38,440 nucleotides of DNA from a virus, in IMG/VR virus record IMGVR_UViG_3300028274_000021, positions 1 to 38,440 of that record, one strand, 5' to 3'. The position numbers were made by a program, and so were the translations under genes. The notes below the pieces were generated by a model that was given only the letters and a program-made list of their open reading frames with translations, was not told the origin of the DNA and ran no database searches. Shown one piece after another: positions 2,654-35,160 of the stretch (the stretch's first letter is position 1; each line of letters begins with the position of its first letter).

Positions 2654-3511
2654 CTATACTGTGACCACTTTCCCATTTACTCTCGACACGGCGAACTCTT
2701 TGCCTCGGACGAGGTATTCTTTGTCGATCGCATCGAATGAAATGTAGCAGGACATCAATCTTTTAATGTATTTGTATTCAATCCAGCAAACTCCCGGTTC
2801 ATCTCTCTCGAGTACCGGCAGGTCCATTCCGCATTGCATCAGTTCAGATTCTACAAGTTCAAATGCCCCAGCCTCTCCTTTGTCGTCATCCCATCCTGTA
2901 ACGGTTAGTGCGTGGCCACTAAGTGTTTTTCCATCGGCTGGAACATAGAAGCTGGTTTTGATCATGTATTCACAATTGTCCATTCTGTGCTCGATCAACC
3001 ATTTCCATCGAACACCTGTACCGATCGGCCGATGAAGAAGAAGCCATTTTTTGAAAACATCGACCGTCATGTCCTCAAGTGAGATTCTTCGGTTTTCTGT
3101 TTCCGGGAACCCCTGGCAGAATTTTTTAAAAATTACCCAGGCATTCTGGAGCGTGTCACCCCATTTTCGATCTCCCCCTGTTTTCTCTTGCTCTCTCCAT
3201 TGGGCCTCTCCATCAAAAATGGCCAACACTCCATTCCATATTGTGTTTTGGATCCCGGCACAAATAATTCTCATGTATGCCGTGCAGGAATTCTTTGATT
3301 GTTTCGGGATCTTCCATCCGAACTTTTTTGCTTTTTCCCGGAGCGAGAATTTTCTGGGCATTTTTACACCATCAAAGGCGGGCTTTGGGGCGATCTTTTC
3401 AAACGGGCTCGGGGCATCAATTGCTCCGATTGGGGTGTTTATGTTCTCTGGGAGTGTTGGGACGTAGATGTGTTTCCTGTAGAGCCAGATGACGATTTTT
3501 AGAAGTATCAT
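2654..3511 (-). CDS. Papain-like (C1A-type) cysteine peptidase
   Basis: This 285-residue protein is the only convincing minus-strand gene. After a hydrophobic start (MILLKIVIWLY) and a ~65-residue propeptide-like region it shows QSKNSC (Q71, C76, catalytic cysteine region), SGHALTVTGWD (H200, catalytic histidine) and GVCWIEYKYIKR, the usual C-terminal C1 strand. The usual NSWG motif is replaced by VESELMQCG near residue 220, so the catalytic Asn is not obvious. No classical endolysin was found elsewhere, so this could be the lysis enzyme, or a maturation or anti-host protease. It ends in TAG, two codons before a TAA. Family call good, role open. Confidence 0.75.
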   Translation of the reverse strand: MILLKIVIWLYRKHIYVPTLPENINTPIGAIDAPSPFEKIAPKPAFDGVKMPRKFSLREKAKKFGWKIPKQSKNSCTAYMRIICAGIQNTIWNGVLAIFDGEAQWREQEKTGGDRKWGDTLQNAWVIFKKFCQGFPETENRRISLEDMTVDVFKKWLLLHRPIGTGVRWKWLIEHRMDNCEYMIKTSFYVPADGKTLSGHALTVTGWDDDKGEAGAFELVESELMQCGMDLPVLERDEPGVCWIEYKYIKRLMSCYISFDAIDKEYLVRGKEFAVSRVNGKVVTV

Positions 3512-5350: not shown

Positions 5351-5986
5351 ATGAAAGATTTGCTAATTCAGTTCAAATTCAAAAACAATATTTTAGAGAA
5401 AGCTCTTCGTGCGAAAATGGAAGAGTACGGTTGTGAAACAATAAGTGATTTCGCAAGAAAAGTGTTTGATAGAAACCATAAAATAAAATGCTCTTATCTT
5501 AGTTCGTATGGGACGTTGCGGAAAAACCCAAGAAATAAAAACACAGGAAAATTCAAGGATTCTGCAATCGAGGTTTCTAAAGTTTTAGGAGTGCCGTGTG
5601 AAGAATTATTTCCTGCTGGGTTGTATGCTTATGCTTCGCTCGGACAATCTTTGCCACAAATAGAGCTTGAAACAGAGAGTGATAAATATATCGGGCTTGA
5701 TTCGCCAGAGGTGTTGGCTCTTGATTCAGGTTTTGATACTCAGAAGCAGACAATTCAAAGGGAATATCGAGAGGGGTTTGAAAAACTTTTCCTCAATTTA
5801 TCCTCTCGGGAGCAACAAATAATCAAATTCAGGTTTGGATTTGACGATGGAATCCCTCGAACTTTGGAAGAAACAGCAAGGATTTTCAATGTTACAAGGG
5901 AAGGGATCCGGCAATATGAAGAGAAAATCTTAGAAAAATTGAGATATTTACCTATTACAAAAAAAATCTTTAGCGAAAAATTTTAA
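5351..5986 (+). CDS. Hybrid regulator: XRE-like HTH + sigma-70 region 4
   Basis: The 211-residue protein has an N-terminal XRE-like domain (about 10-90: ISDFARKVFDRN, SYLSSYGTLRKNP, IEVSKVLGVPCEELFPAG). Its C-terminus (about 148-200) matches sigma-70 region 4: LSSREQQIIKFRFGFDDG, then PRTLEETARIFNVTREGIRQ and EEKILEKLRYL. Region 4 normally reads the -35 box and touches the RNA polymerase beta flap. Regions 1-3 are absent, so it cannot be a complete sigma factor; it may act as an activator or promoter-specificity switch. The A-rich leader has no Shine-Dalgarno. Domain calls are strong; role inferred. Confidence 0.75.
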   Translation: MKDLLIQFKFKNNILEKALRAKMEEYGCETISDFARKVFDRNHKIKCSYLSSYGTLRKNPRNKNTGKFKDSAIEVSKVLGVPCEELFPAGLYAYASLGQSLPQIELETESDKYIGLDSPEVLALDSGFDTQKQTIQREYREGFEKLFLNLSSREQQIIKFRFGFDDGIPRTLEETARIFNVTREGIRQYEEKILEKLRYLPITKKIFSEKF

Positions 5987-6417
5987 TGAAAAATAAACTA
6001 TTCATCGGTATCATCATTCTTACTTTTCTCGCTCTCGGGATAGGGGTTCTGGCGAACTCTAAGGAGGTAACGCTGAATCGGCAGTATAATTCCTACGGAG
6101 ATTCGACTGCAGAAAAAAAACTCGCCTACGACCAACAGAAGGCGAAGTACGACAAGGTCCGGGAGGAGATGGAAGAAAAAGAAAAAGAGCTCCGGGATGC
6201 CTGGAGTGAAGAACAAGAGGCGCAGGACGATGTCCGGTGTGAACTTGCAAAGTTGAAGCTCTTAAATCTGTATAAAATAAACCAGGTTGATTTTGAACTG
6301 CGGAATGTCATACAAGAGTATTGCGACGAATTGCCCGCCTGGTTCGATGATTACAATTGGATCTGGGACATGATGGTCGATCTTGATAATACAAACAGAG
6401 ATGCTCCACCACAGTAA
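5986..6417 (+). CDS. Membrane-anchored coiled-coil protein
   Basis: An N-terminal hydrophobic segment (LFIGIIILTFLALGIGVLA, possibly a signal peptide cut after LANS) is followed by a charged coiled coil (about 45-85: YDQQKAKYDKVREEMEEKEK). A Trp/Tyr-rich tail (WFDDYNWIWDMM) follows. It overlaps the regulator gene by one base (TAATG). It would act on the outer face of the membrane or in the periplasm. Function unknown; the architecture recalls spanin i-type proteins, but it is not next to the lysis genes. Confidence 0.6.
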   Translation: MKNKLFIGIIILTFLALGIGVLANSKEVTLNRQYNSYGDSTAEKKLAYDQQKAKYDKVREEMEEKEKELRDAWSEEQEAQDDVRCELAKLKLLNLYKINQVDFELRNVIQEYCDELPAWFDDYNWIWDMMVDLDNTNRDAPPQ

Positions 6418-14906: not shown

Positions 14907-15607
14907 AACTCGTATTTCTCGACACCGAAACAACAGGGATTGATAATGCCCGCTTGATCCAGCTCTCATATCAGAAGTTTGGGGATGAAATTAAAACCGA
15001 TCCATACAATCCCGGTGTGCCGATTGAGTTTGGTGCAATGGGGACGCATCACATCACGCAGGCGATGGTAGACAAACAAAAGCCTTTTAAGGGCTCGGAG
15101 GATTCAAAAACTTTGCAGGAGCTTTTGGATGGGAATGTTCTTGTCGCACACAACTCAAAATTTGATATGGCCGTTTTGAAAGAGGAGGGGGTCAATACAA
15201 AGTGGAACATCTGCACAATGCGAATTGCGAAAAAATATTTTGACATCGATTCGTATAAGCTGCAGGCTCTCCGGTATTTCTTCCATCTTGACTTGAGTCT
15301 TGATGAGGCGAAGCCACACGACGCAGAGGGGGACGTGATCGTTCTCGTGAAGGTTTTTGAACAGCTTATGGATAAGGTTGGCCACGAAGCTGGGCTTTCG
15401 GATCCTGCTGAAATTTTGAAGGAAATGGTAAAAATCACAAACGGCCCGATTGAAATCAGGAAGTTCCTTTTCGGGAAACATCGGGGCGAGACTTTTGAAG
15501 AAGTGGCCAAAAAAGACAAATCCTATCTTCAGTGGCTTTTGAAGCAGCAAACCGGCGACGATGCCGACCAGGATATTATTTTTACTTGTAACAAATTTTT
15601 AAAATGA
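14903..15607 (+). CDS. DEDDh 3'-5' exonuclease (DnaQ/ExoX-like)
   Basis: The 234-residue protein has the three exonuclease motifs: FLDTETTG (D7, E9), VAHNSKFDM (D88), and PHDAEGD (H139, D144). A C-terminal segment (about 180-234: FGKHRGETFEEVAKKDKSYL, then QWLLKQ) is the small domain also found at the end of exodeoxyribonuclease X. It removes nucleotides from 3' ends, and could proofread, degrade host DNA or trim recombination ends. ATGA overlaps link it to the upstream basic protein and the downstream methylase. Confidence 0.85.
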   Translation: MKLVFLDTETTGIDNARLIQLSYQKFGDEIKTDPYNPGVPIEFGAMGTHHITQAMVDKQKPFKGSEDSKTLQELLDGNVLVAHNSKFDMAVLKEEGVNTKWNICTMRIAKKYFDIDSYKLQALRYFFHLDLSLDEAKPHDAEGDVIVLVKVFEQLMDKVGHEAGLSDPAEILKEMVKITNGPIEIRKFLFGKHRGETFEEVAKKDKSYLQWLLKQQTGDDADQDIIFTCNKFLK

Positions 15608-16875
15608 AATTGTCAGAATTGAAACCGAATCCAAAAAATCCACGAAGCATAACAAAGCCTCAGGTGGAGAAGCTGAAAGCGTCCATTAAGAAGTTTCCAA
15701 AGATGATGGAGCTTCGCCCGATTGTTCACGACAAGGATGGGATTGTTCTCGGTGGAAATATGCGACTGCGGGCTCTTGGCGAGCTCGGGTATGATGAATT
15801 GCCGGAGAACTGGACAAAACTTGCGGACGATCTCTCGGAAGACGAGAAGCGGGAATTCATAATCAAGGATAACGTTGGCTTTGGGTCGTGGGACTTTGAA
15901 GAGTTGGCCAACGAGTACTCAATCGAAGAGCTCGAGGCCTGGGGTATGGAAAAGGTTGTTTTTGAAGAGCCAGAACCAGAGGCTGGGGATACGGACCCGG
16001 ATGACATTCCTGCAAAGCCTGAAAAACCAACAGTAAAGCGAGGGGATGTTTACCAGCTCGGGGATCACAAACTGATGTGCGGAAACAGCACGGTTGTTGC
16101 TGACATCGAGAAACTAATGAAGGGGGAGCTTGCGGACGCAATGTGGACAGACCCGCCTTATAATGTAGATTATGAATCCAGCGATGGATCTAAAATCAAA
16201 AATGATAATATGGCCAATGCGCAATTCCGTGAATTTCTCCTGGACTCTTTCTCTTGTGCGTTTTCGTGCATGAAGGAGGGGGCTCCACTTTATGTGTCTC
16301 ATGCAGACACGGAGGGGTACAATTTTCGTGGGGCTTTCATCGATGCTGGATTCAAATTGTCCGGGTGTTTGATTTGGAAAAAAACATCACTCGTGCTCGG
16401 GCGGTCTGACTACCAATGGCAACACGAACCAATCCTTTATGGTTGGAAGCCTGGATCGAAGCACCAGTGGTTTGGCGGTCGAAATAAGACAACAGCCTTT
16501 GAGACATCTTCTAACCCATTACAGGTTTTGGAGGATGGTTCTATTACGGTTACTGTCGGATTTGAAACAATAAAAATTTCCGGGGAATCGTTGAAAATCA
16601 ATGAGGTAGAGACCGCTGTCATTTATCACGAGAAACAGAAAAAGAACGCAGACCATCCAACGATGAAGCCGGTTTCTCTTATTGGTAAAATGCTCAGAAA
16701 CAGTACGCAGAAGGGAGACATTGTTCTCGATCTATTTGGGGGCTCGGGGTCCACGATGATTTCGTGCGAACAATTGAAGCGAAAATGTTACATGATTGAG
16801 CTCGACGAGAAATACTGCGACGTGATTATTCGTCGATGGGAGGAGTTCACTGGAAAAAAAGCAAAAAAATTATGA
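15604..16875 (+). CDS. ParB-domain / DNA methyltransferase fusion (N6-adenine or N4-cytosine type)
   Basis: The 423-residue protein starts with a ParB/Srx-like domain (about 1-115: LSELKPNPKNPR, RPIVHDKDGIVLGGNMRLRA). This is joined to a PF01555-type methylase with DPPY (183-186) and the SAM-binding FGGSGST (378-384). DPPY before FxGxG gives the beta-class order. DPPY usually indicates N6-methyladenine. The target site cannot be read from sequence. No restriction gene is seen, so it probably protects phage DNA or marks it. It is coupled by ATGA to a PQ-loop protein and then to MetK, the enzyme that makes its cofactor. Confidence 0.9.
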   Translation: MKLSELKPNPKNPRSITKPQVEKLKASIKKFPKMMELRPIVHDKDGIVLGGNMRLRALGELGYDELPENWTKLADDLSEDEKREFIIKDNVGFGSWDFEELANEYSIEELEAWGMEKVVFEEPEPEAGDTDPDDIPAKPEKPTVKRGDVYQLGDHKLMCGNSTVVADIEKLMKGELADAMWTDPPYNVDYESSDGSKIKNDNMANAQFREFLLDSFSCAFSCMKEGAPLYVSHADTEGYNFRGAFIDAGFKLSGCLIWKKTSLVLGRSDYQWQHEPILYGWKPGSKHQWFGGRNKTTAFETSSNPLQVLEDGSITVTVGFETIKISGESLKINEVETAVIYHEKQKKNADHPTMKPVSLIGKMLRNSTQKGDIVLDLFGGSGSTMISCEQLKRKCYMIELDEKYCDVIIRRWEEFTGKKAKKL

Positions 16876-17120
16876 AGTATTTATTTTACCTGGCCACACC
16901 TCTTTTGCTCGTTTCTGGAATTCCACAGACGATTCAACTTTTGCAAACGCACAGCAGTGGTGACATTTCAATTTTGACCTATGCGCTGACGGCCACGGCG
17001 ATCGGTATTCTTTTAGCAAATTCCATCTACGAAAAAGCCAGGCCCTTGATCTGGGCGAATGGAACATCTTTCTGTATGGTGAGTTTGAATTTATTTTTAA
17101 TTATTTTATACCATGTTTAA
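16872..17120 (+). CDS. PQ-loop / SemiSWEET-like small transporter
   Basis: Read from the ATG at 16872, which overlaps the methylase TGA. The 82-residue protein has three membrane helices: YLFYLATPLLLVS, ILTYALTATAIGILLANSI, FCMVSLNLFLIILYHV. A GIPQTIQLLQTHSSGDIS motif after the first helix is the PQ-loop signature (PQ, then a polar turn with S). Three-helix single PQ-loop proteins (SemiSWEETs) dimerise into transporters for sugars, and larger relatives carry amino acids. Its 8-base overlap with metK suggests a linked role, for example methionine uptake, but the substrate is unknown. An earlier ATG at 16836 lies inside the methylase gene. Confidence 0.7.
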   Translation: MKYLFYLATPLLLVSGIPQTIQLLQTHSSGDISILTYALTATAIGILLANSIYEKARPLIWANGTSFCMVSLNLFLIILYHV

Positions 17121-18099
17121 GACAGCTGAATCGGTCACGCCTATGCATCCTGATAAATTGTGCGACAGGATCTCGGACGCAATTCTTGACAAATGCTTAC
17201 GACAGGATCCTCTCTCTCGGGTTGCTGTGGAAACAATGGGAGGGCACGGAATCATCACAGTTACCGGGGAGGTAACGACAAATGCCTTTTTCGACGCTCG
17301 GGCCATTGTGGAGCGAATCGCCCCAGGGAATGGGGTACAAATCAATATTGTCAAACAATCGCCGGACATCGCAAACGGTGTCGATACAGGCGGTGCAGGG
17401 GATCAGGGGATCATGGTCGGTTACGCTTGCCGTGACAACGACGACTTTATCCCGCAGGAACAATATCTCGCTCGGAGTCTTTGTATGTACCTTTATCAAG
17501 AATTTCCTGCAGACGGGAAAACGCAAATCACGCTTGATGATGATGGAAGAATCCACACGATTATTGCGAGCTTCTGCGGTGTGAAAAAAGAGGATATCTC
17601 AAAACAAATTTGCAATTGGCTAGATGCAGAAGGGCTCATATCTGACGGGCAGCAAATAGTCACACACGCCAACCCATCGGGCGATTGGAATCAGGGAGGC
17701 TTTGAAGCTGACACTGGTGTTACTGGTCGGAAGCTGGTTGTCGACAACTACGGTCCACAAATCCCACTGGGGGGCGGAGCGTTCTCGGGGAAGGATAGCT
17801 CGAAGGTCGACCGCTCTGGAGCATACAAGGCTCGACAAATGGCTGTTCAGCTTTTGAAAGAGAAACGGTGTGACCGATGTATTGTGCATATTGCCTACGC
17901 TATCGGAGTTGCATTGCCCGTAATGGTCACGGCGCACTATCTTTGGGATGGCGAAGAGCACGCTTGCGTTGAGAATTTTTCCCCAACAAAAGATTTGACC
18001 CCTCTGGCAATAATTGAAGACCTCGGGCTACGGAACCCAATCTTTGAGGAAACTGCAGAATGGGGGCATTTCGGAAATAACTTTAATTGGGACAAATGA
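17113..18099 (+). CDS. metK: S-adenosylmethionine synthetase (MetK), short form
   Basis: The 328-residue product carries the MetK signatures: HPDKLCDRISD (12-22), GAGDQGIMVGY (94-104) and GGGAFSGKDSSKVDRSGAY (220-238). Catalytic His, Asp and Lys positions therefore look intact. The enzyme joins methionine and ATP to give SAM. It is some 50 residues shorter than typical bacterial MetK (~384), so the call of activity is an inference. It follows the methylase and PQ-loop genes with overlapping ends, so all three should be made together. MetK is rare in phages; T3 instead encodes a SAM-degrading enzyme. Confidence 0.93.
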   Translation: MFKTAESVTPMHPDKLCDRISDAILDKCLRQDPLSRVAVETMGGHGIITVTGEVTTNAFFDARAIVERIAPGNGVQINIVKQSPDIANGVDTGGAGDQGIMVGYACRDNDDFIPQEQYLARSLCMYLYQEFPADGKTQITLDDDGRIHTIIASFCGVKKEDISKQICNWLDAEGLISDGQQIVTHANPSGDWNQGGFEADTGVTGRKLVVDNYGPQIPLGGGAFSGKDSSKVDRSGAYKARQMAVQLLKEKRCDRCIVHIAYAIGVALPVMVTAHYLWDGEEHACVENFSPTKDLTPLAIIEDLGLRNPIFEETAEWGHFGNNFNWDK

Positions 18100-29579: not shown

Positions 29580-30059
29580 ATGGACAGATTGATTGATCGC
29601 ATCGTCGCACTACTTGAGGCGAACGTAAAAACTCCCCGGGGAATCAAAGCGGTTTACAAGGGAGATATTTTCTTGATTCCGAAGTCGAGCATCCCGGCGA
29701 TTATGGTTTCGCCGAACCGAACAGAAGTAAGAACGGCCCAGAATACGCAGGATTTTAATGTTTTCACTATCGACATCACGGTTGTCCTGGACGCTCGGGA
29801 TTATTTCAATACATCACCGACAGAGTTCACGGGGCTTTTTACAGCGGCCTTGATAATGGAGGAACGTGTATCCGGGACATCAAACAAACCAAAATCTGAC
29901 ACGATCCTGCACACAATCCGATCTCTTTTTGACGACGATTCAGATTACTCTTTGAAGGCCGATTGTCAGATAGATTATTTATTCAGCGATCAGCGTGAGT
30001 TCCCAACAGTAGAGGGAAATATGCAGATCCAGGTTCATTCTAAAGTTTACACCCGATAA
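29580..30059 (+). CDS. Tail terminator / tail completion protein
   Basis: 159 residues: an N-terminal helix (DRLIDRIVALLEANVK), then strands (KSSIPAIMVSPNRTEV, FTIDITVVLDARDYF), an acidic helix and a C-terminal strand (MQIQVHSKVYTR). This is the common fold of siphophage tail terminator proteins (gpU/gp37-like), which cap the tail tube. Position after the gpG-like gene fits. Confidence 0.65.
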   Translation: MDRLIDRIVALLEANVKTPRGIKAVYKGDIFLIPKSSIPAIMVSPNRTEVRTAQNTQDFNVFTIDITVVLDARDYFNTSPTEFTGLFTAALIMEERVSGTSNKPKSDTILHTIRSLFDDDSDYSLKADCQIDYLFSDQREFPTVEGNMQIQVHSKVYTR

Positions 30060-30060
30060 A

Positions 30061-30189
30061 ATGGAACAAATGGTTCAGTCTCGGCCCCCAGAAAAAAAGT
30101 TGTGGAAAATGGAAGACGGAAGTAGAATTGAAGCAGAAACTTTTAAAGAAGCTCTAAAAATTTATAACTCTCTAAATGAAAAAATTTAG
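30061..30189 (+). CDS. Small hypothetical protein, 42 aa
   Basis: MEQMVQSRPPEKKLWKMEDG, then ETFKEALKIYNSLNEKI and TAG. It sits one base after the tail terminator gene and overlaps the first exported-protein gene by 14 bases. The F/I-x-A...EA..I end resembles that of the small protein at 33520 on the other side of the exported cassette. Function unknown. Confidence 0.45.
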   Translation: MEQMVQSRPPEKKLWKMEDGSRIEAETFKEALKIYNSLNEKI

Positions 30190-30592
30190 TTTTATCGCTC
30201 TCGGCTTGGTTGCTCTCGGACTCGTTTTCTTTGCTGCACACGCTGCAGTAACGAAGACCTTTGTCAGTTCCGGTGGCGAAAAATCCACTTATACTTACGC
30301 TCTCACAGCGAACCTGGACACGTCAGGGATTCATGATATTTCCGGGGCTTCGTGGGTAGGGATAAGTTCAAAGGGGATCACAGCAGATACAATCAGTGTT
30401 CAAGTTTCAGTTCTCCCGGCCCCAACTGCGGCCGCAGAATGGTTTACATTGACGGATAATTCCGGGGTCAATCCATTTGCTGCTGACAATAATCTCTGGC
30501 AACAGAGCGTGGTAGGGATGAGAGCATTGAGATTTGTCCGGGCCGGTGCGGCTGACGGAACCATTACAATGCAACTCACTCTCAAAAAATGA
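30176..30592 (+). CDS. Exported protein, 138 aa (Sec signal peptide)
   Basis: A typical signal peptide (MKKFSFIALGLVALGLVFFA AHA, cut before AVTK) precedes a ~115-residue beta-rich domain (TFVSSGGEKSTYTYALTANL, ISVQVSVLPAPTAAAEWFTL, GMRALRFVRAGAADGTITMQ). A Sec signal is unexpected in a tail operon. It is coupled by ATGA to the next exported gene. The domain is not recognised, but the pattern fits a small beta sandwich on the outer side of the membrane. Confidence 0.7.
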   Translation: MKKFSFIALGLVALGLVFFAAHAAVTKTFVSSGGEKSTYTYALTANLDTSGIHDISGASWVGISSKGITADTISVQVSVLPAPTAAAEWFTLTDNSGVNPFAADNNLWQQSVVGMRALRFVRAGAADGTITMQLTLKK

Positions 30593-31965
30593 AAAAACTT
30601 TTAATAATCGCTTTCGGGACTCTGATGTGTGGGATGGCCTTTGCGGGGGTTGGCCCATTCAAGGCATCTGAATACGCAAACAAGGCGGATGATATTTTGA
30701 AGCGGAATGCTTCAGGAGAAATCACATCCACAACTTCTACTGATACGCTCGGGAGTTCGAGCGATCGATGGGATAAAATTTGGGCCGATGATATCGACAC
30801 AACGGTTGCAACGATTGGTGGGCTTTCATCTGGTTCTGTTACGATTGATGTAACGGACGCAGAGGCTTTTCTTGTTAGAAAGGCAGGAGATACCGGAGAC
30901 GTTTTTACGGTCGACACAGTGGGATCACAGGTCAAATACCTCTCGACAGGGGTTTTTGGTGCGGCAGCAACACCGACTCTTTCTTTTGGAGATGGAGATA
31001 CGGGATTCTATGAAAGTGCTGATGATAACTTAATAATTTCCATCGGAGGGGCTTCAAGATATGAATTTACTAATACTATTTTTCAAAGCACTGGCTCACA
31101 TTGGGGTTTAAACAGGGTAACTCCTACTAATACAGCTCCTACTCTTTTACCAGCAAAGGGAGATAGCGACACGGGGATTGGAGAAAATGTGGGAGACCAA
31201 CTCTCTTTGATTGCAGGAGCAAAAGAAATGCTTCGTCTTTCTGAAACGGGAACGGCGACAACCGACCAAATAATTATCGCACCTGCTGGGATTATCGGTA
31301 CTACAACTACTCCTGCTTTAGCCTTTGGAGATGGGGATTCAGGATTTTATGAAAGTGCTGATGATGAGTTTAACCTGTCTATCGGTGGGACGGCATTATT
31401 TCAAGCACAGACGAATGGTATAATTTTTACGACTGGATCTTTTCGACCACAAATCAGAAACGTGAACCCGACTGCGACCTCCCCTGCATACGCTTTTTCA
31501 GCAGACACGAATACTGGTATCGGACGAGCAACCGCTGACCAACTCTCCCTCATCGCAGGAGGAGTAGAAGGAATCCGAATTACAGAGGCGACAAACATTA
31601 CAACTCAACTTGTAGATTCAGTAGGATTTGATGCTATCGATACCATTACCTACAACGGAACCACGACAACCGCGGATTGGGGAACTACAAATGTAGCTAC
31701 TATGACGTTCGGGGCTGGAAATATAGGAACGTTCGCCTTTACAGATCCTACGGTCGTGGGGCAAGCGGTTAAACTTAAGCTGATTCAAGATGGGACAGGT
31801 TCCCGGGTTGTGACCGCGTGGGATGCAGATATTCAATGGAGTGGTGGAGGAGCTGCCCCAACGCTCTCAACAGGGAGTGCAGCAGAGGACTGGGTTACTT
31901 GCATCTTTACTAACACGGGGGCAGGAAACCGGTATGATTGCTCTGCTTCTTTAGACTTTCAATAA
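30589..31965 (+). CDS. Exported tail-fibre-like repeat protein
   Basis: A signal peptide (MKKLLIIAFGTLMCGMAFA, cut before GVGP) leads to about 440 residues of fibre-type sequence. Four related units follow the pattern PxLxFGDxDTGFYESADDxLxxSIGG or its variant SDTGIGxxxxDQLSLIAGxxExxRL (starts near residues 128, 187, 244 and 303). Such units are found in phage tail fibres, which normally have no signal peptide. A C-terminal beta domain follows (TITYNGTTTTADWGTT...YDCSASLDFQ). The protein could be displayed on or released from the infected cell, or added to the virion outside the cytoplasm. Confidence 0.75.
   Translation: MKKLLIIAFGTLMCGMAFAGVGPFKASEYANKADDILKRNASGEITSTTSTDTLGSSSDRWDKIWADDIDTTVATIGGLSSGSVTIDVTDAEAFLVRKAGDTGDVFTVDTVGSQVKYLSTGVFGAAATPTLSFGDGDTGFYESADDNLIISIGGASRYEFTNTIFQSTGSHWGLNRVTPTNTAPTLLPAKGDSDTGIGENVGDQLSLIAGAKEMLRLSETGTATTDQIIIAPAGIIGTTTTPALAFGDGDSGFYESADDEFNLSIGGTALFQAQTNGIIFTTGSFRPQIRNVNPTATSPAYAFSADTNTGIGRATADQLSLIAGGVEGIRITEATNITTQLVDSVGFDAIDTITYNGTTTTADWGTTNVATMTFGAGNIGTFAFTDPTVVGQAVKLKLIQDGTGSRVVTAWDADIQWSGGGAAPTLSTGSAAEDWVTCIFTNTGAGNRYDCSASLDFQ
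30985..31367 (+). repeat. Internal near-identical DNA repeat in the exported fibre-like gene
   Basis: A ~44-base segment at 30985-31028 (TTTGGAGATGGAGATACGGG...) recurs with few changes at 31324-31367 (TTTGGAGATGGGGATTCAGG...), coding for FGDGD-TGFYESADD in both. It reflects duplication of one fibre unit. Confidence 0.7.
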
Positions 31966-31967
31966 AC

Positions 31968-32219
31968 ATGAATAAACACCTAAAAATTCTCGGAGGACTC
32001 GCTATTGTTGGTGGACTCGTGGTGGGCGTAGTGTCCATTAAATCAGAAGAATTGTGTGGAGAAAGTATAGAGGAGATGACAGCGCTTTCAAGCATAGACT
32101 ATGATAAAGCCACGAAGAAACTACAAGAACAAAACAATGGAGAATGTAAAAGTTTCCATAAAGAGATTACAAACACGGGAGAATTTTGCTTTACTCAAAC
32201 TGTAACTTGTAGGAAATGA
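31968..32219 (+). CDS. Membrane-anchored Cys-rich protein, 83 aa
   Basis: From the ATG at 31968 (MNKHLKILGGLAIVGGLVVG VVS) the N-terminus is a membrane helix or signal. The rest is polar with four cysteines (ELCGES, GECKS, EFCFTQ, TVTCRK), an even number as in disulphide-bonded exported proteins. The stop overlaps the next ATG. Not recognised. Confidence 0.6.
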   Translation: MNKHLKILGGLAIVGGLVVGVVSIKSEELCGESIEEMTALSSIDYDKATKKLQEQNNGECKSFHKEITNTGEFCFTQTVTCRK

Positions 32220-32998
32220 AAAAATTACTATTCAGCTTCTTTCTTTTAATCGCTCCGTTTGTATCGGTGGGAATTGCTGAATGTGCAATTGCACAGGGGA
32301 ATACGACGAGCTGGACTTCAACGGCGGCAACCAATACACACACGGATAATATTACGCATAATAATGACGATGGCGCCGGGAATGTCGTTGTTCTATTTGC
32401 TCAATTTAGCGACAGGGCAGGAAATGTTGAAAGCGCTACTTACAATGGAAGTGCAATGACACAGTTGGTCAATGGGGTTGATGTTGATACTTACAGGGGC
32501 GCAATTTATTACATCGTAGCAGGTGCGAGTGGCTCGAATACTTTGGCGGTCAATTCCTATACAGGGGCGATTGATGCGCGAACAGGGCTTGATGTTGATA
32601 GTTTCCCGAAGCGGAGAAGTTATTATGTAATCACTTTGAATGGAGTTGATCAAAGCACACCAGTCGGACAGTCGGGGCTTGATTATGTTACCGCATCACC
32701 ATTCACTACCGCCGTTACGTTGACAGGAGTTCTTGATAATTCATTTATTTATTCAAACAAGGTTGGAGATAATTCTTTTTCATCAACTCCGAGCGGTGGA
32801 ATCGCACAAATTGCCAGACCAACTTCTACATGGGGGAGTGAAATCATTGCGAGTGATACAACTGTTTCAGCAGGAAATTTGACTCAAACATTTACAGGAG
32901 GAGTCGGAAATGCACATTATCAAGGTTCAGTTGAGTTTTTGGAAGGAACTTTTGCGGATGACTCTACAAGTGCAATATTCTTTGGCTCAGGATTTTAA
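32216..32998 (+). CDS. Exported beta-sandwich protein, 260 aa
   Basis: A strong signal peptide (MKKLLFSFFLLIAPFVSVGI AECAIA) is followed by a domain with the pattern GNVVVLFAQFSDR...VESATYNGSAMTQLV...AIYYIVAGASGSNTLAV...YVITLNGVDQSTPVGQS. This order (VxVxYxGxxLT, YYxVxxPxxGxxTV, VxFxGVDQxxP) is a beta-sandwich module seen in secreted bacterial proteins and in some phage fibres. It could bind glycans or proteins at the cell surface. Function inferred. Confidence 0.7.
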   Translation: MKKLLFSFFLLIAPFVSVGIAECAIAQGNTTSWTSTAATNTHTDNITHNNDDGAGNVVVLFAQFSDRAGNVESATYNGSAMTQLVNGVDVDTYRGAIYYIVAGASGSNTLAVNSYTGAIDARTGLDVDSFPKRRSYYVITLNGVDQSTPVGQSGLDYVTASPFTTAVTLTGVLDNSFIYSNKVGDNSFSSTPSGGIAQIARPTSTWGSEIIASDTTVSAGNLTQTFTGGVGNAHYQGSVEFLEGTFADDSTSAIFFGSGF

Positions 32999-33486
32999 TG
33001 AAAAAATATTTTCTAACGGCCTCTGGGATTTTGTCGCTTCTGGCAGCAGGGGCTGGGTATAATAATCTTGATGTTCATATTTCTGTCAGTGGAGAGAAAG
33101 TAATTGTATTTGAGACAAAAACAGAGTGCCTGAAAGCAAAGAAGGGGATTATTAATATTTTCAAAAAGAAAGAATTGACACCGGACCAGGGTTTTGTTTT
33201 GGAGGCGTTTAATGGTCAATCGTGTGGGATTATTCTTGAAGAAGGTGTACCAGATATGGTCAACATGATGACCGTCACTGAAAGTAAAGTTTATTATTCT
33301 CCCTCGGATTATTCTAAGAGAAAAGATTCGTTGTATAAAAAATCAAAAGAAAACCCTACAAATATGACAATCTTTGAGCAGAGAGACCTTATTGGAATCG
33401 TTAATGAGGAAATGAAGAGGGCCGGAAAAAAAGGGTATAAGTCAATTTCCACGAACGACATTGTTATTGAGTTGGAAAAAAAGTAG
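32998..33486 (+). CDS. Exported/membrane-anchored protein, 162 aa
   Basis: The N-terminus (MKKYFLTASGILSLLAAGAG) is a short signal peptide or anchor. The rest is a mixed alpha/beta domain with two cysteines (TECLKAKK, GQSCGIIL) and a basic helix (DYSKRKDSLYKKSKENP). It overlaps the previous stop by one base and ends in TAG. It is the last of five consecutive exported or anchored proteins. Not recognised. Confidence 0.6.
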   Translation: MKKYFLTASGILSLLAAGAGYNNLDVHISVSGEKVIVFETKTECLKAKKGIINIFKKKELTPDQGFVLEAFNGQSCGIILEEGVPDMVNMMTVTESKVYYSPSDYSKRKDSLYKKSKENPTNMTIFEQRDLIGIVNEEMKRAGKKGYKSISTNDIVIELEKK

Positions 33487-33519: not shown

Positions 33520-33669
33520 ATGGTAGATAAAAAACCAACAACCACTACAGAAGAAAGTACACCGCCTCGGAAGAAGCGGGCTTTTTATTCTCCCGATCTC
33601 GGGAAGTCGGTATTTGCCCACGACAACCAAGAGGCAAAAGAAATTGTTAATAAAAAACTTTCCAAATGA
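33520..33669 (+). CDS. Small hypothetical protein, 49 aa
   Basis: MVDKKPTTTTEESTPPRKKR, then AFYSPDLGKSVFAHDNQEAK and EIVNKKLSK. The stop overlaps the tail tube gene (ATGA), so it belongs to the tail operon. The FYSPDLGKSVFA..NQEAKEIV pattern recurs in small phage proteins near the tail tube; function unknown. In the same frame as the preceding TAG. Confidence 0.55.
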   Translation: MVDKKPTTTTEESTPPRKKRAFYSPDLGKSVFAHDNQEAKEIVNKKLSK

Positions 33670-34646
33670 GCAAACTCATAGGTCGTCGTACTCAGATAGC
33701 TATCGGTCGAGAAGAGGCCGCATACGGTACAAAGTCATCCCAGATTGTTGACATCCCGGTCCAGGAGATTTCCGTGGATCTGACAAAGGATGTTCTTTTG
33801 AATGACCAGGCCTATGCTCGAATTGAAGACAATCAAATTGGAAGTGCAATCGGTAAGAAAACAGCCGAGGTCACAATCTCTGGGATTACTTCTGGGGAGC
33901 TTATCGGTCAATTCTTGAAAGCCGCCTTTGGTACTCTTGTTACTGGGGCCGCTACACCGGTTGCCGGCGCAGAAACGCACACATTTACGGCGGAGCAAAC
34001 AAACGATGCGGATTCGTACTCAATCATTTACAAGGACGGAAACGACGCAAAACAAATCCTCGGAGCTGTTTTGAGCCGTCTTGAGATTAATATTGTGGTA
34101 GGGGAATGGGTAAATTATTCGGCGACATTTATTGGAATCTTCCCGGCAGATGCTACAGAAACAATTACACCGCTCACCGAGGAATTATTCACAGCCTCAC
34201 ACGCTGTTTGTAAGATTGCCACTCTTGTCGGAGGACTTGCCGCCGCAAGCGCAGTTCCACTTGAAACAGGGACGATTGTTATTGAGAAAAACACGGAGGC
34301 ACATTTCACATGGGGTTCTCACGATGTTTCAAAGGTTCACAACAAACAACTTTCAATTACAGCCGACTTCGAATTGCTTTACGACGACAGTTCATACTTT
34401 GACGACTTTGATCAGCACACCGTTATGGCCATGTCGATCACTCTCACGACTGATGCCTTCATCACAGGAACGACACCGTTCTCTTTGGCGATTACAATCC
34501 CGACTTATCAAATTTCGGAGTTCAGCAATCCTCGCCCATTGGATGAGCTTGTTCGACAGTCTTTCTCTATCAAGGCAGAATACGACACCGTCACTTCAAA
34601 AATGGCCGATGCAGTTCTTGTAAATACTGCAGGAAATACTTACTAA
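33666..34646 (+). CDS. Major tail tube protein
   Basis: The 326-residue protein begins GRRTQIAIGREEAAYGTKSS, typical of siphophage tail tube proteins. Later patterns are VTISGITSGELIGQFLKAAF, SYSIIYKDGNDAKQILGAVL and LSITADFELLYDDSSYFDDF. The C-terminal LPITIPTYQ-like strand (LAITIPTYQISEFS) is also usual. It polymerises around the tape measure to form the tail tube. Confidence 0.82.
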   Translation: MSKLIGRRTQIAIGREEAAYGTKSSQIVDIPVQEISVDLTKDVLLNDQAYARIEDNQIGSAIGKKTAEVTISGITSGELIGQFLKAAFGTLVTGAATPVAGAETHTFTAEQTNDADSYSIIYKDGNDAKQILGAVLSRLEINIVVGEWVNYSATFIGIFPADATETITPLTEELFTASHAVCKIATLVGGLAAASAVPLETGTIVIEKNTEAHFTWGSHDVSKVHNKQLSITADFELLYDDSSYFDDFDQHTVMAMSITLTTDAFITGTTPFSLAITIPTYQISEFSNPRPLDELVRQSFSIKAEYDTVTSKMADAVLVNTAGNTY

Positions 34647-34658
34647 TAATCCCCACGA

Positions 34659-34970
34659 ATGAATATCACGCTCCCCGTGTCCAAGAAGAAAGTTGAACTT
34701 AAAGAAGTGCTTTTGCACGGAGAAGTTCGAGATTTTGAACTTAATGTTTTCAGAAAGATTCAGGAAGAAGGAAACGGCGGGGATATGGCCTGGTGCATTG
34801 GCCAGAAATTAAAATCTGACATGGTGGCTTTGCTGGTTGTGAAAGAGCTTGACGGCAATCCTCTCACCCCAGAGATATTGGCCTCGCTCGAAGAGCCGGA
34901 TGCTCAGTTCATAATCACTGAGTCAAACAAAGCTTACGAGGCTGTTAAAAAAAAATCTCTCTCTCAGTAA
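34659..34970 (+). CDS. Tail assembly chaperone, upstream frame (gpG-like)
   Basis: The 103-residue product lies between tail tube and tape measure, the invariant site of the G/GT chaperone pair. It contains EVLLHGEVRDFELNVFRKIQ and a C-terminal TPEILASLEEPDAQFIITES. It ends just after a run of nine A (34947-34955). A fraction of ribosomes probably slip there into the second frame to make the longer G-T product, which recruits tail tube subunits to the tape measure. Confidence 0.75.
   Translation: MNITLPVSKKKVELKEVLLHGEVRDFELNVFRKIQEEGNGGDMAWCIGQKLKSDMVALLVVKELDGNPLTPEILASLEEPDAQFIITESNKAYEAVKKKSLSQ
34947..34955 (+). promoter_or_regulatory. Slippery run A9 for programmed frameshift
   Basis: GTT AAA AAA AAA TCT: nine A directly before the end of the chaperone frame. 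The downstream frame is +1 relative to the first, so a -2 (as in phage Mu) or a +1 shift is needed; a homopolymer allows either tRNA slip. Confidence 0.6.
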
Positions 34971-35160
34971 GGAAGAAAAACAGGCGATCAAGATTTTCCT
35001 CAAAGCTGGGACTTCAAAAAATCCTCTCCCGAAAGAATGGGAGGATTATCATTTGTGTAAAGAGATGGGCTGGTCCTATCAAGAGTTAAAAGCGACGCCA
35101 ATCAACGTCATTGCAAAATTTATCCAGATCGGTAATATTGTAGCGGACAACCGAAAATAA
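34954..35160 (+). CDS. Tail assembly chaperone, downstream frame (T part of G-T fusion)
   Basis: The frame has no start codon near its beginning (first ATG at about 35066) but codes for NLSLSKEEKQAIKIFLKAGT, WEDYHLCKEMGWSYQELKAT and PINVIAKFIQIGNIVADN. The KEMGW...ELxATP pattern fits T domains of siphophage chaperones. It is read by frameshift from the upstream gene, giving a fusion of about 170 residues. Its TAA overlaps the tape measure ATG. Confidence 0.7.
   Translation, partial: NLSLSKEEKQAIKIFLKAGTSKNPLPKEWEDYHLCKEMGWSYQELKATPINVIAKFIQIGNIVADNRK

Follow-up and report, generated by a model that had tools for sequence, protein, structure and literature searches.

Why would a phage keep, among the genes for its neck and tail, a run of five proteins that are predicted to be exported or membrane-anchored? 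The question is raised by a viral DNA of 38,440 nucleotides (IMG/VR record IMGVR_UViG_3300028274_000021, positions 1-38,440, GC 0.446; the whole stretch is called the window here), in which five coupled open reading frames (ORFs), genes A to E, occupy positions 30176-33486 between the head/neck and the tail-tube genes. The interpretation that is somewhat favoured is a Sec-exported cassette of surface adhesins, expressed late by a probably lytic siphovirus of Patescibacteria. It is based on the export signals, on the fibre- or adhesin-like protein encoded by gene B, on lectin domains of the type found in targets of diversity-generating retroelements (DGRs) in the same slot of related phages, and on modules that gene B has in common with a signal-bearing surface protein of G057, the genome of a small-genome bacterium. 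An earlier note on this DNA had proposed a cargo cassette acting at the host surface: surface action is the part of that proposal that is best supported, and the notion of an insert holds only in part, the core of the block being fixed in relatives with only its contents varying.

Anatomy of the block and its predicted export signals

The genes, all on the plus strand, are consecutive and coupled, as first described, with neighbours overlapping by 1-4 bases (ATGA or TAATG) or lying 2 bases apart. Gene A (30176..30592, 138 aa) encodes a predicted cleavable signal peptide (AHA|AV, residue 23; the bar marks the cleavage point) followed by a 115-aa mature domain of a fold that was not recognised. 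Gene B (30589..31965, 458 aa, ATGA overlap with A) encodes a predicted exported fibre-like adhesin, and gene C (31968..32219, 83 aa from its ATG, a longer TTG start at 31938 being unlikely) a protein with an N-terminal membrane anchor and four cysteines in its exposed part. Gene D (32216..32998, 260 aa, ATGA overlap) would provide a cleavable signal peptide and a secreted domain, and gene E (32998..33486, 162 aa, TAATG overlap) an N-terminal anchor or weak signal peptide. None of A, C, D and E falls in a known family: A has no family match and no match among the phage records of INPHARED; C has no confident family match and no counterpart was seen in relatives; D has no match in Pfam, PHROGs, INPHARED or IMG/VR, and a search of 380 genomes gave matches in 3, all of them marginal. 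Searches of INPHARED with A, B and D returned a single match, between a short stretch of the C-terminus of B and a cyanophage.

Signal peptides were judged by the charge of the n-region, the hydrophobic core and the -3/-1 rule. By taking these features into account, classical cleavable leaders were found in A (MKKFSFIALGLVALGLVFFAAHA|AV), B (MKKLLIIAFGTLMCGMAFA|GV) and D (MKKLLFSFFLLIAPFVSVGIA|EC or ..AIA|QG), in agreement with the three cleavable signals and two anchors initially proposed. The leader of C looks like a firm, uncleaved anchor, and that of E is a borderline case, with 1.95 as its highest mean over 12 residues and AGA|GY as a possible cleavage site. Hydrophobic N-termini are indeed present on all five proteins; however, they are not all of the MKK type, C beginning with MNK. 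No lipobox is present in any of the five. We infer that A, B and D are exported by the Sec pathway and that C and E are anchored in the membrane. N-terminal hydrophobicity at this level is found in approximately 9 of the 49 called genes, including 5 of 5 in the cassette (hypergeometric probability, 7e-5), and several of the others encode proteins with multiple transmembrane segments or have doubtful starts. No leader of this kind is seen on the adjacent structural proteins or on the ordinary fibre whose gene follows that of Dit.

When A and B are compared between related phages, the signal region is 32-50% identical versus 64-83% for the mature part, with the hydrophobic core and the Ala at -1 retained. 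The classical cleavage sites, along with a drift that keeps hydrophobicity, are more in keeping with signal peptides than with binding anchors. The distinction matters for a different explanation, which we consider rather unlikely, namely that A, B and D are host-recognition fibres of the virion: side fibres or tail decorations, with the hydrophobic N-terminus acting as an uncleaved virion anchor, or with the proteins being exported and added to the particles when the cell lyses or later. The host range would then depend on the distal parts of B that are swapped. Their place between the neck and tail-tube genes would be natural for such proteins. However, besides the features of the leaders, tail assembly is cytoplasmic, and a fibre that lacks a signal is already encoded behind Dit. 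Small anchored proteins (C and E) coupled to secreted ones could also bring to mind genes for lysis or envelope disruption within the tail operon, holin- or spanin-like ones with partners that are secreted, but this is extremely improbable: none of the five matches a lysis family, B is fibre-like, and a weak Rz-like candidate is found elsewhere, at 5986-6417.

A conserved core with exchangeable contents

Relatives were recovered in IMG/VR (L001, L003, L004, L005 and L010-L017). Gene A and the N-terminus of B are found at the same place in them with 62-78% identity, A being the most conserved gene of the cassette (65-78%). Gene E, kept at 30-49% identity, is present in the two contigs, L001 and L004, whose sequence reaches beyond the middle genes. 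The earlier note had advocated a comparison with relatives lacking the cassette; in all relatives that the cassette search recovered, the core is kept as far as the contig reaches it. Searches based on the cassette favour relatives that bear it; a capsid-based search yielded the same contigs, and a tail-tube query in IMG/VR retrieved no relatives.

Between the core genes the contents differ: L001 has a 741-aa signal-bearing protein, L003 the start of another signal-bearing gene, L004 an avd-like gene, and the window C and D, with no Avd-like ORF seen in its cassette. The intervening genes of the relatives also have a hydrophobic start (the 741-aa protein of L001, MKKLLILAFGILTICTASA|FS; that of L003, MKIFKTIGIVLGSVFLLGAALL), with the exception of the avd-like gene, and the slot of D is taken in relatives by other genes for predicted secreted proteins. 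Judging from these contigs, A, the N-terminus of B and E are a fixed part of the late operon of this phage group, with variable contents in between.

This conservation is difficult to reconcile with a classical moron, i.e. a short-lived insertion that brings its own promoter and changes the surface of the host in lysogeny. Morons of the lambda Lom type, within tail operons, likewise encode an exported surface protein; the window has predicted ones inside a tail operon, with the GC of C, D and E (0.38, 0.43 and 0.37) below that of the genome (0.446). Unlike lambda Lom, however, the cassette is made of several genes coupled in an operon, its core is kept across the relatives recovered rather than being sporadic, and no lysogeny genes were found. 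The ORFs overlap like operon genes, with no convincing promoter or terminator of their own (consensus sites are approximately 2 standard deviations above shuffled sequences and lie mostly inside ORFs), and a search of the window, G001 and G004 for a tyrosine integrase gave nothing. A moron or other lysogenic-conversion cargo is considered improbable, and the moron as a strict class was rejected on the promoter/terminator and integrase searches and on the relatives. The phage is probably a lytic siphovirus.

Gene B and the possible sources of its modules

Gene B consists of a signal peptide (AFA|GV), a conserved N-terminal domain, FGDGDTGFYES repeats and a C-terminal phage tail-fibre tip domain, with a match to phrog_27998 (tail fiber, 1.5e-3). 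The repeats include a direct repeat of 117 nt (30949..31404, plus strand; copies 30949-31065 and 31288-31404, 70% identical) that codes for FGDGDTGFYESADD units. Fibre- or adhesin-like domains had been announced for two of the five proteins; B bears this out, but a second such protein could not be shown, D having no family match. The tip (residues approx. 338-458) is 56-58% identical to the signal-less phage fibres of L006-L008. Structure prediction, as proposed earlier, yielded for this domain a model of modest quality (predicted local distance difference test, pLDDT, 66), which gave 89 matches in BFVD at E<=1e-3, several of them to viral proteins named tail fibre, and weak matches only in the PDB; the AlphaFold2 model of the gene A product (pLDDT 45) was uninformative. 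The middle repeats are 50-54% identical to a signal-bearing protein of G057, the gene for which lies on a contig that also carries FtsZ- and FtsA-like genes.

Two of the relatives, the contigs c728 and c766, share 99.91% identity over 6489 bp, after which they diverge at approximately codon 110 of B (approx. 400 bp versus 49 bp), to rejoin at the FGDGDTGFYES motif, the one that is duplicated inside the B gene of the window. This divergence and rejoining point to a recent exchange of B modules at the repeats. Furthermore, 4 of the 4 partial contigs obtained with the capsid query end inside the cassette (joint chance approx. 0.02, 0.018), an argument that is weak because two of the four contigs are near-identical. 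Leader DNA is partly common to different genes (70% between gene C of L001 and B, as compared with 63% between B orthologues). Genes might therefore be joined at their leader segments, a hint that is to be taken as a lead only. The best reading of these data is that the cassette is partly host-derived and rapidly reshuffled.

Some of the same observations would fit virion fibres as well. The C-terminal domain of B is common to signal-less fibres and matches predicted tail-fibre proteins, and a module swap in a near-identical genome, with contigs ending in the cassette, is typical of host-recognition islands (PMC3909814). However, other modules resemble signal-bearing bacterial surface proteins, which counts against virion fibres.

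Lectins of the DGR type in related phages

Gene C of L001 (the 741-aa protein) and gene B of L004 end in a Fib_succ_major domain (1e-34 and 1e-31, respectively). Fib_succ_major is a domain of DGR targets. In L004 the lectin gene is adjoined by a bAvd gene (4.7e-13), and relatives of this lectin are found in 10 of the 380 genomes of the phylum of G011. One locus of a small-genome bacterium, the contig L108 (G346:C22), has a DGR with a lectin target, Avd, a template repeat and the start of an apparent reverse transcriptase, beside a ribosomal-protein-S7-like ORF; the differences between its template and variable repeats fall at template adenines in 15 of 15 cases. The lectin-avd blocks of L004 and L108 are 64% identical at the nucleotide level over 892 bp, and their Avd proteins 71% identical.

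No RVT_1 domain was detected in 7 phage records and no template-like repeat in those of L001 and L004, with the limit that the records may be incomplete; a self-contained DGR in the phages was rejected on these grounds. Mismatches in the phage lectin DNA are enriched at template adenines (p 0.0035 and 0.0002), which is suggestive, but protein-level constraint could mimic it. Since the phages carry the target, and L004 also avd, but neither a template repeat nor a reverse transcriptase, it may be imagined that this phage group exports lectins of the DGR type and leaves their diversification, in trans, to the DGR machinery of the Patescibacteria host, a scheme that is regarded as highly doubtful.

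The targets of cellular DGRs are membrane-anchored adhesins that combine signal or transmembrane segments with domains for adhesion, and there is a DGR clade confined to Patescibacteria (PMC8144416). As in these targets (clade 2, PMC8144416), L001 and L004 bear Fib_succ_major on signal-bearing proteins, and L004 also has avd; unlike the cellular systems (PMC8144416), no reverse transcriptase or template repeat was found in the phage records, and the cassette of the window has no lectin. The phage-borne C-type-lectin variable domains of the relatives, in a host-recognition context, also recall Mtd of Bordetella phage BPP-1 and other phage DGR tail proteins. However, known phage DGR proteins are reported to lack signal peptides (PMC6199706), while the lectin proteins of the relatives have them and would constitute an exception to that statement.

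The likely host

The RecA encoded in the window is 70% identical, with 491 bits, to that of G057; in three other phyla, sampled around an Oxalobacteraceae, a Bacteroidia and a Cloacimonadota genome, the best scores are 399, 382 and 364 bits (these phyla are named after the titles of their centre genomes). The matches of MetK are overwhelmingly to Patescibacteria (candidate phyla radiation, CPR), and MetK is also encoded on another phage-like contig, L034, beside a terminase. Genome sizes of 0.4-2.0 Mb and the MetK neighbours fit, and suggest, that the phylum sampled with 380 genomes is Patescibacteria. From RecA, MetK and the modules of B, the host is likely a member of Patescibacteria.

The metK gene (17113-18099; G004:28720-29733) is in itself a phage-borne S-adenosylmethionine synthetase gene, of the short CPR-like type. 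It lies near a gene for a ParB-like N6/N4 DNA methyltransferase (15604-16875), and metK is beside a methyltransferase gene also on L030, a Nomurabacteria contig, and on L027. A small PQ-loop/SemiSWEET-like transporter (16836-17120, Pfam 2e-7) is encoded between the methyltransferase and metK.

Possible roles at the cell surface

In the proposed mechanism the cassette would, judging by its position, be co-transcribed with the tail genes at a late stage of the infection. A, B and D would leave the cytoplasm as processed secreted proteins, and C and E as membrane-anchored ones. B would be the main adhesin, keeping its export signal and N-terminal domain while recombination replaces the distal part with modules from bacterial surface proteins and phage fibre tips; in relatives, the B slot or the next gene would supply the DGR-type C-type-lectin domains. 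The products would coat the infected cell and bind what the phage, or the epibiont host, meets. Two roles, about equal, appear the most likely: occupation of receptors, leading to superinfection exclusion and protection of the progeny from debris, or adhesion of the infected epibiont to neighbouring cells, for example the epibiont's own host.

Several points weigh against this interpretation. The fibre-tip domain of B and its place among tail genes would suit a virion fibre equally; the DGR evidence comes from relatives, not from the five genes of the window, where the family search found neither Fib_succ_major nor any recognised lectin domain; and the support is drawn from sequence. With respect to the host, the N-terminus of B has no copy in GTDB genomes, the capsid protein is absent from the 380 genomes of the sampled phylum, and the signal/transmembrane protein encoded at 5986-6417, with its weak Rz-like spanin match, would be at home in a diderm host and is unexpected in a phage of Patescibacteria.

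A role in the attachment of Patescibacteria has been proposed for lectin genes of their phages (PMC12911398). The cassette resembles these concanavalin-like auxiliary genes in that they, too, encode carbohydrate-binding proteins proposed to act in attachment at the Patescibacteria surface, but they are single annotated genes in predicted phages (PMC12911398), whereas the cassette is a conserved five-gene exported block in the tail operon with a fixed core and swapped modules. A possible likeness to the receptor-blocking lipoproteins of the T5 Llp type is that of an exported phage protein that masks receptors in lytic infection; unlike Llp, the cassette proteins have no lipobox, are larger and multi-domain, and are encoded in the late operon. 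The cassette brings together what has been written on phage lectins, on cellular DGR targets and on phage DGR proteins, and we know of no earlier description of such a block in the open-access literature. Nearly all that has been learned about Patescibacteria viruses comes from sequence. On the question of how these epibionts and their phages recognise surfaces, a fixed slot through which a phage takes up, recombines and exports adhesins of bacteria would show that it invests in remodelling the surface of the infected cell, beyond its own tail, as this virus may do, and the cassette offers a concrete, testable set of proteins.

The late operon and other genes of the window

The block is part of a late operon in which a terminase-like gene (20832), called from its position and a match to the ORF that adjoins metK on L034, is followed by genes for a Mu-like protease (24759), the capsid protein (26416, named from tblastn matches to annotated capsid proteins), a head-tail adaptor (28613) and the Neck1/tail-completion protein (29109; phrog_26, 5e-11). 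The putative tail terminator comes next (29580..30059, plus strand), then the five genes, the tail tube protein (33666..34646, plus strand; Phage_tube_2 8.5e-19, phrog_290 8.4e-29), the tape measure protein (35160) and Dit (37310). Last comes a fibre gene, which extends beyond the end of the record and seems to continue at its start. Of the two flanks originally assigned to the block, the tail tube is confirmed by its family match, but the tail terminator has none and is called from position only.

Two short ORFs on the plus strand border the cassette, one of 42 aa directly before it (30061..30189), overlapping the start of A, and one of 49 aa directly after it (33520..33669). They have a common pattern, G-x-x-I/V-x-A-x4-EA-x-x-I, and both places are filled by similar ORFs in L004. 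Between the tail tube and the tape measure genes (34659-35160), a putative tail-assembly chaperone ends at an A-run (approx. 34950) and an open frame continues to the tape measure, making this a candidate -1 frameshift site. Elsewhere, the only sizeable gene against the general direction (2654-3511, minus strand) has a cysteine-peptidase-like look with no PHROG or Pfam match, and the product of 5351-5986 has a C-terminus similar to sigma-factor region 4 (phrog_351, 4e-12) and is a possible regulator of late genes.

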